The notes beneath the pieces were generated by a model that was not told the origin of the DNA, did no database searches, and saw only the letters and a program-made list of their open reading frames with translations. From assembly GCA_014859305.1 (NCBI GenBank), contig JACUUM010000025.1, positions 1-36,316 of the forward strand: a stretch of DNA of 36,316 nucleotides, given 5' to 3'. This document shows, piece after piece, positions 31,524-36,316 of this stretch (positions within the stretch are counted from its first letter, which is position 1; the number at the start of each line of letters is the position of its first letter). The position numbers and the translations under genes were made by a program. Source of the DNA: Coriobacteriia bacterium (lineage in GTDB: Bacteria; Actinomycetota; Coriobacteriia; Anaerosomatales; Kmv31).

Positions 31524-32447
31524 GTGCTGCCGCTGACCGTCCGCGTCCCCGCATCCTCGGCCAATCTCGGCCCGGGATACGACGCGTTCGGGGTCGCGCT
31601 GGGCCTGCACGCCCGCTTCTCCGCCGAGGTGGCGGACGAGTGGTCCGTCCGCGTCGTCGGCGAGGGCGCGGCCGAGCTGCCCGCCGGTCTCGACAACCCC
31701 GTGGTGCTCGCGATGCGGCGCGTGTTCGGCGAGTGCGGCGACGATCGGCTCCGGGCCCGCGTCTTCTGCCACAGCCGAATCCCCGTGGGACGGGGGTTCG
31801 GTTCCTCGGCGGCCGCGATCGTGGCCGGGTGCGTCCTGGCGGATGCGCTGTGCTCCGTGCCCCTGGGGCGGGACACGCTCTTCGGGATCGCGGTGGGGAT
31901 CGAGGGACACGCGGACAACGTCGCCGCCGCCCTGTACGGGGGGTTCACCGTCGCGTGGCGTGACGAGGCGGGCGCGCGCTGCACCCGTATCGACCCGCCG
32001 GGGCTTGCGGCCGTGCTCCTGCCGGCGGGCGGGACGCGCTCGACGCCGGAGGCCCGCGCCGCCCTGCCCCCGACGGTCTCCCACGGCGACGCCGCCTTCA
32101 CCGCCGGACGCGCCGGCCTGATGGCAGCCGGCCTCGCGCTGGGGCGGCCCGACCTCGTGCGCTACGGCGCGGAGGACCGGCTGCACGAGCCGTACCGCTC
32201 GGGCGGCCCTCGGACGGCTCCGGACGCCCGGCGGGCGCTGCTGGAGGCGGGTGCCGACGCGGCGGTGCTCTCGGGCTCGGGCCCGAGTCTCGTCGCTCTG
32301 GTGGTGGACGCCTCGGACGGCATCGCGATGCATCGGGCTGAACGCGTCGCCAAGCGCGTGCGCCGTGCGCTTCGGTCGATCCCGGATTGGGAAGAGCCGC
32401 TTGCGGTGGCCGTCGATCGTGAAGGGGCGGTGCTCGAGGACCGGTGA
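31524..32447 (+). CDS. thrB: homoserine kinase (GHMP family)
   Basis: A 307-residue GHMP kinase phosphorylating homoserine on the way to threonine. The N-terminal VRVPASSANLGPGYDAFG is diagnostic for ThrB. The ATP loop is PVGRGFGSSAAA (Gly93-Ser94-Ser95), and the C-terminal glycine motif is VLSGSGPSLVALV. The GTG start follows AAGGGG. Threonine synthase (thrC) is not in the window, where hom-thrC-thrB is common; instead the stop overlaps an O-antigen-ligase-like gene by four bases. Confidence 0.95.
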   Translation: MLPLTVRVPASSANLGPGYDAFGVALGLHARFSAEVADEWSVRVVGEGAAELPAGLDNPVVLAMRRVFGECGDDRLRARVFCHSRIPVGRGFGSSAAAIVAGCVLADALCSVPLGRDTLFGIAVGIEGHADNVAAALYGGFTVAWRDEAGARCTRIDPPGLAAVLLPAGGTRSTPEARAALPPTVSHGDAAFTAGRAGLMAAGLALGRPDLVRYGAEDRLHEPYRSGGPRTAPDARRALLEAGADAAVLSGSGPSLVALVVDASDGIAMHRAERVAKRVRRALRSIPDWEEPLAVAVDREGAVLEDR

Positions 32448-33835
32448 ACGGGCACGCACAACGGCTGCCGCGAGAGGCGCTCCCCTGGGCCGGCGCATGT
32501 CTTGCCGCCGGACTCGCGGCGGGGGTGCTCGCGGGCCAGGAGCATCTCGTCGCGGGCCTCGGCGCTCCGGCGCGCTGGGCGGCGCTGGCCGCGCTGGTGG
32601 CGGCGATCCTGTATCGTCCTCGGCTGGGCCTGTGGGTGATGCTCGTCGCGGCGCCTCTGAACGACTACGGCCGCATCGTGACCGGCCCGGTGCCCGTCAC
32701 CGTCTTCCAGGCCGCACTGGGGGCGTCGCTCGTCGCTTGGGGATGGCTGCTGCTTGCGGGCGAGGTCAGGCTGCACCGGCCGAACCGCCTGCAGCTCGCG
32801 CTCGTCCTGCCCTTCCTGGCGGCGCTGTGGTCGCTGCCTCTCTCGCTGGACCCGTCGCGCACGGCCTACGGCGCCGCGCGCCTGCTGTTCCTGTGGCTGT
32901 TCGCGCTGATCGTGTCCTACTCCGCCGAGGACCCCCGGCGCCGGGAGCGGATCGTGGAGGTGTTCGTCTGGACCGGCGTCGCCCTGGCGGTCGTCTCGTT
33001 CGCGCAGTACGCGTTCCCCGGGCTCCCGGTCGGCAACACCCATCTCCAGTACGACGCCGCCGGCGTCGACGTGCTGACCCGCCCCGCCGCGTTCTTCCTC
33101 GACCCCAATTTCCTCGCGGGCTACCTGGCGGTGGCCTCGCTGGTCTCGCTGGTCCGCGTGGTGCACTCCTCCTCGCGCCGCGAGGCCGCGCTCTGGGCCG
33201 TCCCCACGGTGCTGTGCGCGACGGCCATGGCGCTCACGCTCTCGCGCTCCGGCCTCGTGGGCTTCCTCGCCGGGGCCGTCGCTGTCGTGCTGACCGCGCC
33301 GCCCAGGCGGCGGCGCGCGATGCTCGTCGCCGCGCTCCTGCTGGCCGTTCTCGCCGTCCCGGTGATCCCCGAGCGCTACGTGCAGCGCGTGACGGCGCTG
33401 GGCGACGTGATGAGCGAGGGATCGCTCGCCACCCGCTTCTTCATGGTCGGTTCCACCCTCGAGATCATCCGCGACTTCTGGGGCACGGGCACCGGCCTGG
33501 CCGCGTTCGACGTCGCCTACCCGTCGTACCGCCGGATCGGCGCCCTGCCGAGGATCCTGAGGCCCCACGAGGTCCCGCTGGCTCTGCCCGCCGAGATGGG
33601 CGTGGCCGGGCTGATCGCCGAGGTCGCGCTCCTCGCGGCGGTCCTGTGGGCGTTCGCCGCCGCGCGCCGCAGGGGGTGGCGGGTCACCGACGCGGTCGTG
33701 CTGACGGGCGTGCTCACGTTGCTGGTCCAGTCCTGGTTCCAGTACTATCTCTACTTCGAGTACCTGTGGCTCTTCGCCGCCCTAGCCGCGGCGCTGCCCG
33801 CCCCCGACGCACAGCGAGGAGCCGGACGTGCCTGA
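32444..33835 (+). CDS. O-antigen ligase/Wzy-like polysaccharide membrane protein
   Basis: A 463-residue protein with about 11-12 hydrophobic spans, resembling the O-antigen ligase/polymerase superfamily. There is a large external segment between spans at about 180-230 (with DPNFLAGYLAVAS) and the typical MALTLSRSGLVGFLAG span. A second external loop containing FWGTGTGLAAFDVAYPSYRR and ILRPHEVPLAL holds the conserved Gly/Arg/His-type residues where WaaL/Wzy act. In a Gram-positive it probably polymerises or attaches a wall or exopolysaccharide. GTG 32444 overlaps the thrB stop (GTGA), and its own end overlaps the Wzz-like gene by eight bases. Confidence 0.8.
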   Translation: MNGHAQRLPREALPWAGACLAAGLAAGVLAGQEHLVAGLGAPARWAALAALVAAILYRPRLGLWVMLVAAPLNDYGRIVTGPVPVTVFQAALGASLVAWGWLLLAGEVRLHRPNRLQLALVLPFLAALWSLPLSLDPSRTAYGAARLLFLWLFALIVSYSAEDPRRRERIVEVFVWTGVALAVVSFAQYAFPGLPVGNTHLQYDAAGVDVLTRPAAFFLDPNFLAGYLAVASLVSLVRVVHSSSRREAALWAVPTVLCATAMALTLSRSGLVGFLAGAVAVVLTAPPRRRRAMLVAALLLAVLAVPVIPERYVQRVTALGDVMSEGSLATRFFMVGSTLEIIRDFWGTGTGLAAFDVAYPSYRRIGALPRILRPHEVPLALPAEMGVAGLIAEVALLAAVLWAFAAARRRGWRVTDAVVLTGVLTLLVQSWFQYYLYFEYLWLFAALAAALPAPDAQRGAGRA

Positions 33836-34601
33836 CCCCCTGGGAACGTGGCTCGCCGTCGTGAGACGCCAGTGGTGGGTGGTCGCGCTCACCATCGTCG
33901 TCGCCGTGGCCGTCGGCTATGCGAGCTCGTTGGTCGCCGACGAGCCCGAACCGGAGTACGAGGGGCGGGCGCGGATCGTCGTCGAGCCCAAGACGCTGGG
34001 CAAGTACTATCGCCTCCCGCAGGTCGACGAGCTGCTCACGGACGTGTCCTCCGAGCAGTTCGCGACACGCACGGCCGTGGAGACGGGGATCGACGAACGC
34101 CACCTGGAGGCGGGTCTTCGCGTCTTCAGCCTCAAGAACCCCCAGACCGCCCTCGTCGTCGCCTACCGCTCGAGCGAGTCCAGCGAGGCGTTGCAGGTAG
34201 CCGACGAGGTCGCCAAGCGCGTAGTGAAGCGCGCGCTGGCGCTGGGCCAGAAGGAGGTCGATCAGACCAAGAGGGAGATCCGGCTCACCGAGAAGGCCAT
34301 CCGTCAGATCGAGGCGATGTCCATCGTGGCCGACCAGTCGCTGCGCCGCCCCGAACGCGCGGCGGCCGCGCGCGACCTGTGGGAGATGAACCTCCAGCTC
34401 GAGTCGCTGCGCGACGGGCTCGAGAAGATAATGAGCGCGTACTCCTACAGCGGGGGAGCTACCGTCGCTCAGCTGCCGGTGATAGAACGCCGCGCCTCCG
34501 GCGTCGCCGGCGCGGCGCTCGCCGGTCTCGCCGCGGGCATGGCCGTGGCGGCCGTGAGGGAGGCGTACTTCCGGCGCCGCGCGCCGGACGAGGCGGCCTA
34601 G
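33828..34601 (+). CDS. Wzz/CapA-like chain-length determinant (polysaccharide co-polymerase)
   Basis: A 257-residue protein with two spans near residues 19-38 and 224-244 and an external region between. This is the Wzz/GNVR layout. Between the spans are an alpha/beta part (YEGRARIVVEP, then ALVVAYRSS) and a long charged helix about 140-175 rich in Lys, Glu, Gln and Arg that could form a coiled coil. There is no C-terminal tyrosine-kinase domain. It probably sets chain length for the polymer made by the upstream ligase/polymerase-like protein. Its TAG stop codon lies inside the 4-bp target duplication of the adjacent IS element, so the coding sequence is intact up to the insertion point. Confidence 0.75.
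   Translation: MPDPLGTWLAVVRRQWWVVALTIVVAVAVGYASSLVADEPEPEYEGRARIVVEPKTLGKYYRLPQVDELLTDVSSEQFATRTAVETGIDERHLEAGLRVFSLKNPQTALVVAYRSSESSEALQVADEVAKRVVKRALALGQKEVDQTKREIRLTEKAIRQIEAMSIVADQSLRRPERAAAARDLWEMNLQLESLRDGLEKIMSAYSYSGGATVAQLPVIERRASGVAGAALAGLAAGMAVAAVREAYFRRRAPDEAA
34598..34601 (+). repeat. target-site duplication, left copy (CTAG)
   Basis: CTAG immediately before the left IS end, matching CTAG at 36271-36274. A 4-bp duplication fits the IS1380 family. It includes the TAG stop codon of the Wzz-like gene. Confidence 0.85.
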
Positions 34602-34617
34602 CCTCGATTCTGCACGA
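34602..34617 (+). repeat. IS left inverted repeat
   Basis: Reads CCTCGATTCTGCACGA; pairs with the right end with one mismatch (T/C at position 8). Confidence 0.92.
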
Positions 34618-34646
34618 GTAGTCGCAGGTTTCTGCTAGAAACAGGC

Positions 34647-34717
34647 CACGGTGACCTTCTGAGCTGGGATAATGGGAGCGCGAAGCTTCCATATCCTAGA
34701 CGCCGGAGGTCACCGTG
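34647..34717 (+). promoter_or_regulatory. transposase promoter flanked by an RBS-sequestering inverted repeat
   Basis: CACGGTGACCT (34647-34657) is perfectly complementary to AGGTCACCGTG (34707-34717). The right arm covers part of the ribosome-binding site GGAGGT and the GTG start. A -10-like GATAAT (34668-34673) lies between the arms. A transcript entering from outside would contain both arms and could hide the start, while one begun at the internal promoter (near 34680) would lack the left arm and be translated. Other ISs, such as IS10, use this kind of protection; it is inferred here. Confidence 0.6.
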
Positions 34718-36051
34718 TGGGTGAAACGTACTACGCAGCTCGGTTCGATGGAAGTAGACGCCGACTGCGGCGGCCTCACCTCACGCGCGGGCACCGCGCT
34801 GCTGATCGGCCTGGCCGACTCCCTCGGGCTCACCGACGCGCTCACCTCCGGGCTTGCCGGGTTGTTCACCCGCCGTGTCAAGCACGCCCCCGGTCGGGTG
34901 CTCCGCGATCTGGCCGTCATGCTCGCCGATGGCGGAGATGCGCTCACCGACCTGGGCGCACTGCGCGACCAGGGCGTGCTCTTCGGGGAGGTCGCCTCCG
35001 ATGCTACCGCGTACCGGACGCTCGAGGCCGTGGGCGCCGGACGGCTTGCGCGGCTGCGCGAGGCGCGGGCGGTCGCCCGGGCACGCGCGTGGGAGGCGGG
35101 AGCGGCGCCGGACCGCATCGTGCTCGACATCGACGCGACGCTTCTCACCGCGCACTCCGAGAAGGAAGGTGCCGCCCCCACCTACAAGCGCACCTTCGGC
35201 TTCCACCCGCTGCTTTGCTTCGAGGCGCAAACCGGCGAGGGGCTCTCCGGCATGCTGCGCCCCGGCAACGCCGGGGCCAACACGGCGGCCGATCACATCA
35301 CCGTGCTCGACGCCGCGCTCGCGCAGCTGCCCGCCAGCCGCGTCGGCCCCGGGCTGCTCGTGCGGTGCGACTCGGGCGGAGGGGACGCACGCGTTTGCCG
35401 AGGCGGTCGTGCAGCGCGGACTTACCTTCTCGGTGGGGGTGGATATGTCCGTGCTCGTGCGCGAGGGGATCTGCGAGGTGTTCGATGACGCGCGGGTGCC
35501 CGCCCTGGACGCGGACGGAAGCCCGCGCGAGGGGGCCTGGGTCGCCGAGCTCGACGTGGATCTGGAGGGCGCGGGGTGGCTTGCGGGCACGCGAGCGATC
35601 TGCCGCAAGGAGCGCCCGCATCCCGGCGCACAGCTGCGCTTCACCGACGAGGAGGGCATGCGCTTCCAGGTCTTCCTCACGAACCAGCAAGGCGGGCGCA
35701 TCGCGCGTCTCGAGCAGCTGCACCGGTGCCGAGCCGTCATCGAGGACTCGATCCGTTGCGGCAAGGACACCGGCCTTCGCAACCTGCCCTTCCGCAGCTT
35801 CGCGCTGAACGAGGTGTGGCTCGAACTCGTGCTGATGGCGACCGACCTGCTCGCCTGGACGAAGCGGCTGTTGCTTGCCGGAGAGCTGGCGATCTGCGAG
35901 CCCAAGCGGTTGCGCTATCGGTTGCTGCACGTCGCGGCCAGGCTCGTGCGCCACGCGCGCTAACCTGCGCATGCGCCTGCCGCGCTCCTGGCCGTGGGCC
36001 GGCGCGCTCGTGGATGCCTTCGCGCGCCTGCGGATGCTGCCTTCCGGATAG
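34715..36051 (+). pseudogene. IS1380-family transposase, frameshifted
   Basis: Read in two frames, this is a DDE transposase of about 415 residues. Frame one, from GTG 34715, carries LIGLADSLGLTDAL, RVLRDLAVMLADGGDALTDL, the catalytic Asp in VLDIDATLLTAHSEKEGAAP, GFHPLLCFEA and the second Asp in VRCDSGG. The run GGGG at 35381-35384 then has one base too many, and the protein resumes in the next frame as GTHAFAEAVVQRGLTFSVG, on through PHPGAQLRFTDEEG and RCGKDTGLRNLPFRSFALN to RYRLLHVAARLVRHAR and TAA 35961-35963. Beyond that stop, another frame (35965-36051) reads LRMRLPRSWPWAGAL then FARLRMLPSG, which looks like the usual family C-terminus and implies a second frameshift. Sequencing error cannot be excluded for either. 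Confidence 0.88.
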
Positions 36052-36254
36052 CACCCGACACGACACCGACAACCGAGGCGAACCGCAGGGCTTGCTTCAG
36101 GACGCCCCCGAATCGGAGGAACCAGCGCGAGAACCCTCCCCGGCATGCAGAAGCTCCTCCGACGATGCCTCAGGAGTGCGCCGGGGGCGAGAAAGGCGTG
36201 CCATGGAGGCCTCCGGACACCCGAGCAGCCCTCGGATGGCGGTCAGCGGGCGCT
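36052..36254 (+). other. noncoding right end of the IS
   Basis: About 200 bases without a convincing gene. TCGGAGGA (36113-36120) and TCCTCCGA (36155-36162) can pair with a 34-base loop. Nothing else is recognised. Between the transposase-frame TAA at 35961-35963 and the next gene at 36276 there are 312 bases, all but the last few of them IS tail. Confidence 0.6.
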
Positions 36255-36270
36255 TCGTGCAGGATCGAGG
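36255..36270 (-). repeat. IS right inverted repeat
   Basis: Reads CCTCGATCCTGCACGA on the minus strand, the partner of 34602-34617 with one mismatch. Confidence 0.92.
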
Positions 36271-36274
36271 CTAG
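36271..36274 (+). repeat. target-site duplication, right copy (CTAG)
   Basis: CTAG directly after the right IS end, identical to 34598-34601. Confidence 0.85.
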
Positions 36275-36275
36275 G

Positions 36276-36316
36276 ATGGCGAGTAGTCGAGTCGGGCGGG
36301 ACCTGCGTGCGTGGTG
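36276..36316 (+). CDS. start of a gene cut by the window end
   Basis: ATG 36276 opens a frame reading MASSRVGRDLRAW to the end of the window. Removing the IS and one CTAG copy puts this ATG one base after the TAG stop of the Wzz-like gene, with GAGG about nine bases upstream, so it was probably the next gene of that polysaccharide operon. With the IS present its native ribosome-binding region is displaced. Too short to name. Confidence 0.5.
   Translation, partial: MASSRVGRDLRAW

Follow-up and report, generated by a model that had tools for sequence, protein, structure and literature searches.

An insertion sequence that stands exactly between a stop codon and an ATG raises two questions: how it came to occupy that position, and whether a pair of coupled genes was separated in the process. 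The window analysed here (36,316 nt) is a whole contig, and it ends at position 36316, 42 bases past the right target duplication of the element. The initial annotation saw the insertion correctly but over-interpreted it. The locus is very probably an ordinary, now defective IS1380 insertion, whose placement reflects the choice of YTAR/CTAG targets in a genome where genes contain few CTAG copies.

The following features define the element:

34602..36270, + strand, IS1380-family insertion sequence of 1,669 bp, present as a single full copy in the assembly
34602..34617, + strand, left terminal inverted repeat CCTCGATTCTGCACGA, part of the IS1380 element
36255..36270, − strand, right terminal inverted repeat CCTCGATCCTGCACGA; its outward reading terminates with the weakly SD-like CGAGG
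34598..34601, no strand, left target duplication CTAG, a perfect match to the right copy
36271..36274, no strand, right target duplication CTAG, a perfect match to the left copy
34715..36051, + strand, transposase pseudogene in three collinear segments and three frames, identified by tblastn and by Pfam DDE_Tnp_1_4 in two frames

The two terminal repeats are 16 bp long and share 15 of the 16 positions (one mismatch). The transposase matches the IS1380-type family DDE_Tnp_1_4 (PF13701) in two frames, at 2.5e-34 and 7.1e-21, and DNA relatives of the element are annotated as IS1380 family transposases. Members of the IS1380 family generate a short target duplication of 4–5 bp, and both the CTAG copies flanking the element and its length, within the expected range of approximately 1.6–1.7 kb, conform to the family, as do short terminal inverted repeats starting with CC. 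The assignment to IS1380 and the flanking CTAG copies, both proposed in the initial annotation, were thus confirmed, with exact borders at 34602 and 36270. A search of the assembly for a second intact copy found none; the only other matches were a 50-bp fragment that closes contig C12 and one of 25 bp. In the last 50 bp of C12 (L002/L108), the piece of IS1380 transposase abuts a frame with SpoIIE/PP2C phosphatase-like residues, which suggests either a remnant or chimerism at the contig end. Scanning the element for consensus promoters and terminators returned nothing, and phage records searched with the element gave no match.

When an intact 475-aa relative was used as the tblastn query, breaks in the transposase frame were located near 35376–35396 and 35949–35965. 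The loss of an intact transposase lowers activity and leaves family membership untouched. Because of these two breaks, the copy is predicted to be unable to move on its own, unless the breaks are assembly errors. The element has probably decayed where it stood.

Related elements were found in the same order and in more distant hosts. Those in genomes G009, G041, and G056 of the order share approximately 70–72% DNA identity with the window element, the same tips, YTAR flanks, and several exact stop-codon insertions. The G041 element is present in several copies with an intact 475-aa transposase, whereas the window contains the sole, broken copy of its genome. IS1380 elements on Streptomyces and Kitasatospora plasmids (NZ_CP108269, NZ_CP108523, and NZ_CP108290) likewise encode a DDE_Tnp_1_4 transposase, are approximately 1.67 kb long, and have CCTC-type tips, YTAR duplications, and a leader hairpin over the transposase start. 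They differ in that DNA identity is only approximately 64–72% over about half of the element, with different internal letters, and in that most carry an intact annotated transposase.

Two genes precede the insertion:

32444..33835, + strand, wzy-like gene of the O-antigen ligase/polymerase family (Pfam Wzy_C, 2.5e-16), which follows thrB in syntenic relatives
33828..34601, + strand, intact wzz-like gene for a chain-length determinant (its Pfam Wzz score of 20.2 bits falls short of the curated cut-off of 25.5)

In many genomes of the order, homologues of wzz have a wzy-like neighbour; two further genomes share the arrangement argS-lysA-hom-thrB-wzy-wzz, and a third shares hom-thrB-wzy-wzz. The wzz-like ORF ends with a TAG at 34599–34601 that lies within the left CTAG copy, as had been noted initially. 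Insertion at C-TAG would keep the upstream stop in the left duplication, and the insertion would be tolerated because this stop codon is intact. Little or no effect on wzz is thus expected, and the element may have been retained since its insertion was near-neutral. The proposal that both neighbouring frames were left intact holds for wzz, the stop of which is kept; the downstream frame lacks support as a gene. When 69 genomes of the order and GTDB contigs were searched for the empty site, none was found and only distant wzy/wzz homologues were returned; elsewhere in the order, the closest homologues of wzz reach only 25–37% identity.

On the other side of the element, the sequence available is short:

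36276..36316, + strand, putative downstream ORF start (MASSRVGRDLRAW), 41 nt to the contig end, unsupported as a gene

The ATG (36276–36278) begins one base past the right CTAG copy, exactly as first described. From this position it was proposed that the element splits a translationally coupled pair, removes the ribosome-binding site of the downstream gene, and alters surface-polymer expression. The spacing itself is suggestive, as tight co-directional spacing is common here, with gaps of −60 to +5 between 113 of the 273 pairs of neighbours. The downstream frame, however, extends for only 41 nt because the contig ends at 36316, and its thirteen codons score −3.82 (log-odds, with a codon model trained on the window genes), which places it in the lowest 1% or so. 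Scores as low as this occur at approximately 1.2% of gene starts, a figure biased by the gene caller's choice of starts by score, and in 0.8% of in-gene windows. The other frames of the contig tail also score negative, i.e. non-coding-like. Among the relatives examined, moreover, none has a gene with such a start after wzz. In the syntenic relatives, the gene after wzz encodes a metallophosphoesterase behind a promoter-like leader, and in others it encodes a glycosyltransferase or another protein. A promoter-like CTTGAC...GGGAACAATAG is conserved between wzz and the metallophosphoesterase gene in relatives (L006–L014). A downstream gene is neither shown nor favoured, and 41 bases are too few to exclude one; the description of the two genes as clearly coupled was not borne out.

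Nor does the insertion clearly remove a ribosome-binding site. In the joined flanks (GACGAGGCGGCCTAGGATG), a GAGG lies 9 nt before the ATG, with a best anti-SD pairing of approximately −6.6 kcal/mol; in the occupied site (GGATCGAGGCTAGGATG), a GAGG supplied by the tip of the element itself lies 5 nt before the ATG and pairs at approximately −5.9 kcal/mol. Both versions are weak for this genome: most window genes pair more strongly (the mid-list value is approximately −7.9), and the occupied site is matched or exceeded by 25% of all window ATGs. The reported removal of the ribosome-binding region therefore did not hold up: whether or not the element is present, a weak GAGG of similar strength stands before the ATG. 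Taken with the short, poorly scoring frame and the relatives, this similarity renders improbable the proposed disruption of a coupled pair with altered surface-polymer expression.

The contig end invites a further explanation, namely that the right junction or the tail is an assembly artefact and that the stop–start geometry is absent from the real genome. The contig stops 42 bases past the right duplication, no other contig of the assembly contains its last 27 nt, and the tail has a non-coding score in every frame. In addition, the metallophosphoesterase gene, which comes after wzz in syntenic relatives, is here located in the interior of another contig (C19:9124-9876). No contig continuing past 36316 was found in the assembly. 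Such an artefact nevertheless has little probability, as a true junction is favoured by the perfectly duplicated CTAG on either side and by the presence of just one full copy of the element.

An ordinary IS1380 insertion into a preferred target accounts for the position. In other genomes of the order, YTAR sequences (CTAG, CTAA, or TTAG) flank the ends of related elements at approximately 25 of 28 sites, and the elements of G056 and G009, for which both ends lie on one contig, have perfect CTAA duplications. Of the Streptomyces and Kitasatospora elements with resolvable ends, five of six have YTAR duplications, and the sixth has GTAG. Judged from these flanking sequences, this element type targets the 4-bp palindromic YTAR, mostly CTAG, and duplicates it. 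CTAG is rare in the window genome (71% GC): 99 copies were observed in a 379-kb sample (the window, L107, L108, and L167–L182) against approximately 1,005 expected from base composition only, corresponding to an approximately tenfold depletion. These copies comprise 37 stop codons, 34 intergenic or edge positions, and 28 positions within genes, shares that depend on this sample and on gene calls made with a simple codon model. A CTAG-targeting element is therefore expected to hit a stop codon in approximately one-third of its insertions, and the exact placement at a stop codon follows from YTAR target choice in a genome whose CTAG copies cluster at stops.

Exact stop-codon insertions account for 5 of approximately 16 events in the order, i.e. 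wzz in the window, dnaX/IS/ybaB and ffh/IS/rpsP in G041, a LysE-type gene in G015, and a PQ-loop protein gene in G009 (with CTAA). Synteny was used to pair those element ends that coincide with the end of a contig. For G041, where the two flanks are on different contigs, the pairing relied on gene order and a common duplication. The G041 insertions at dnaX (before ybaB-recR; L162 with L158) and ffh (before rpsP; L160 with L157) are both located in housekeeping gene clusters. This series of stop-codon hits might suggest that the element actively recognises gene ends, through stop codons, terminators, or translation, rather than a tetranucleotide. Their share, however, is close to the 37% expected from the CTAG distribution, so that the element need not recognise stop codons themselves, and other insertions lie between or inside genes, e.g. 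in a glycosyltransferase gene of G058. Gene-end recognition is accordingly most unlikely.

The leader of the transposase gene contains a further conserved feature:

34647..34717, + strand, fold-back hairpin of the transposase leader (z −8.45; pair counts)

The hairpin has a folding energy of −48.2 kcal/mol. Its 3′ arm carries the SD sequence GGAGG (approximately 34705–34709) and the GTG start codon (34715–34717), and a −10-like GATAAT lies between the arms. An inverted repeat thus pairs the SD sequence and start of the transposase gene with the outer end of the element. The fold is kept in related elements, including Streptomyces elements with different letters (z −3.5 to −8.1). When the hairpin was compared across IS1380 elements of two actinobacterial classes (window 34647–34717 with loci L146, L155, L160, L163, L184, L188, and L189), pairing was intact in 94.9% of cells for the six alignable outer pairs, and 13 two-sided changes were counted, a result exceeding all 500 shuffles and all slid controls; these changes fall mostly between two related groups and therefore represent few independent events.

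In IS10 and IS50, fold-back inhibits translation of the transposase: an inverted repeat close to the end of the element masks the start codon, but only in transcripts initiated outside it. The sequences and transposases of those elements are unrelated to those described here, for which the mechanism is deduced from structure only. By analogy with them, the modelled hairpin probably silences read-through transcripts: transcripts from an upstream operon would fold and hide the transposase start, whereas those from an internal promoter would lack the left arm and allow translation of the transposase. The actinobacterial sRNA family Ms_IGR-7 (Rfam RF02469) scored weakly on IS1380 leaders (window 34646–34757 and L191), with inconsistent strands. 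It was rejected as the identity of the leader: the score was 26.7 bits against a gathering threshold of 45, a second match, in the G019 element, was on the opposite strand, and none reached the threshold in Streptomyces elements. The weak scores are probably an effect of the palindrome.

Insertion into CTAG that spares a stop codon has, as such, already been published for an IS481-family transposon: TnRErm46 of Rhodococcus equi targets CTAG, and the duplicated TAG restores the stop in some target genes (PMC6794481). TnRErm46/ISRe46 differs from the present element in its transposase family, its 6-bp NCTAGN duplication, and its cargo genes. In ISPsp10, the stop codon of the transposase gene itself is supplied by a target TAA (PMC4133298). 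A literature search for a CTAG target of IS1380 found no relevant paper among those searched. Two testable additions are the preference for YTAR shown by IS1380 elements of two actinobacterial classes and the covarying leader hairpin. A broader proposal, which we regard as speculative and rather doubtful, is that IS1380 elements of Actinomycetota are adapted to a silent life in operons, in which YTAR would rebuild the upstream stop, the CGAGG tip could serve as the ribosome-binding site of the next gene, and the covarying leader hairpin would block transposase synthesis from host read-through.

What appeared to be a coincidence becomes a countable rule: in a genome purged of coding CTAG, a CTAG-targeting transposon tends to hit gene ends and spares the upstream gene. 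This rule should extend to other transposon families with CTAG-like targets.
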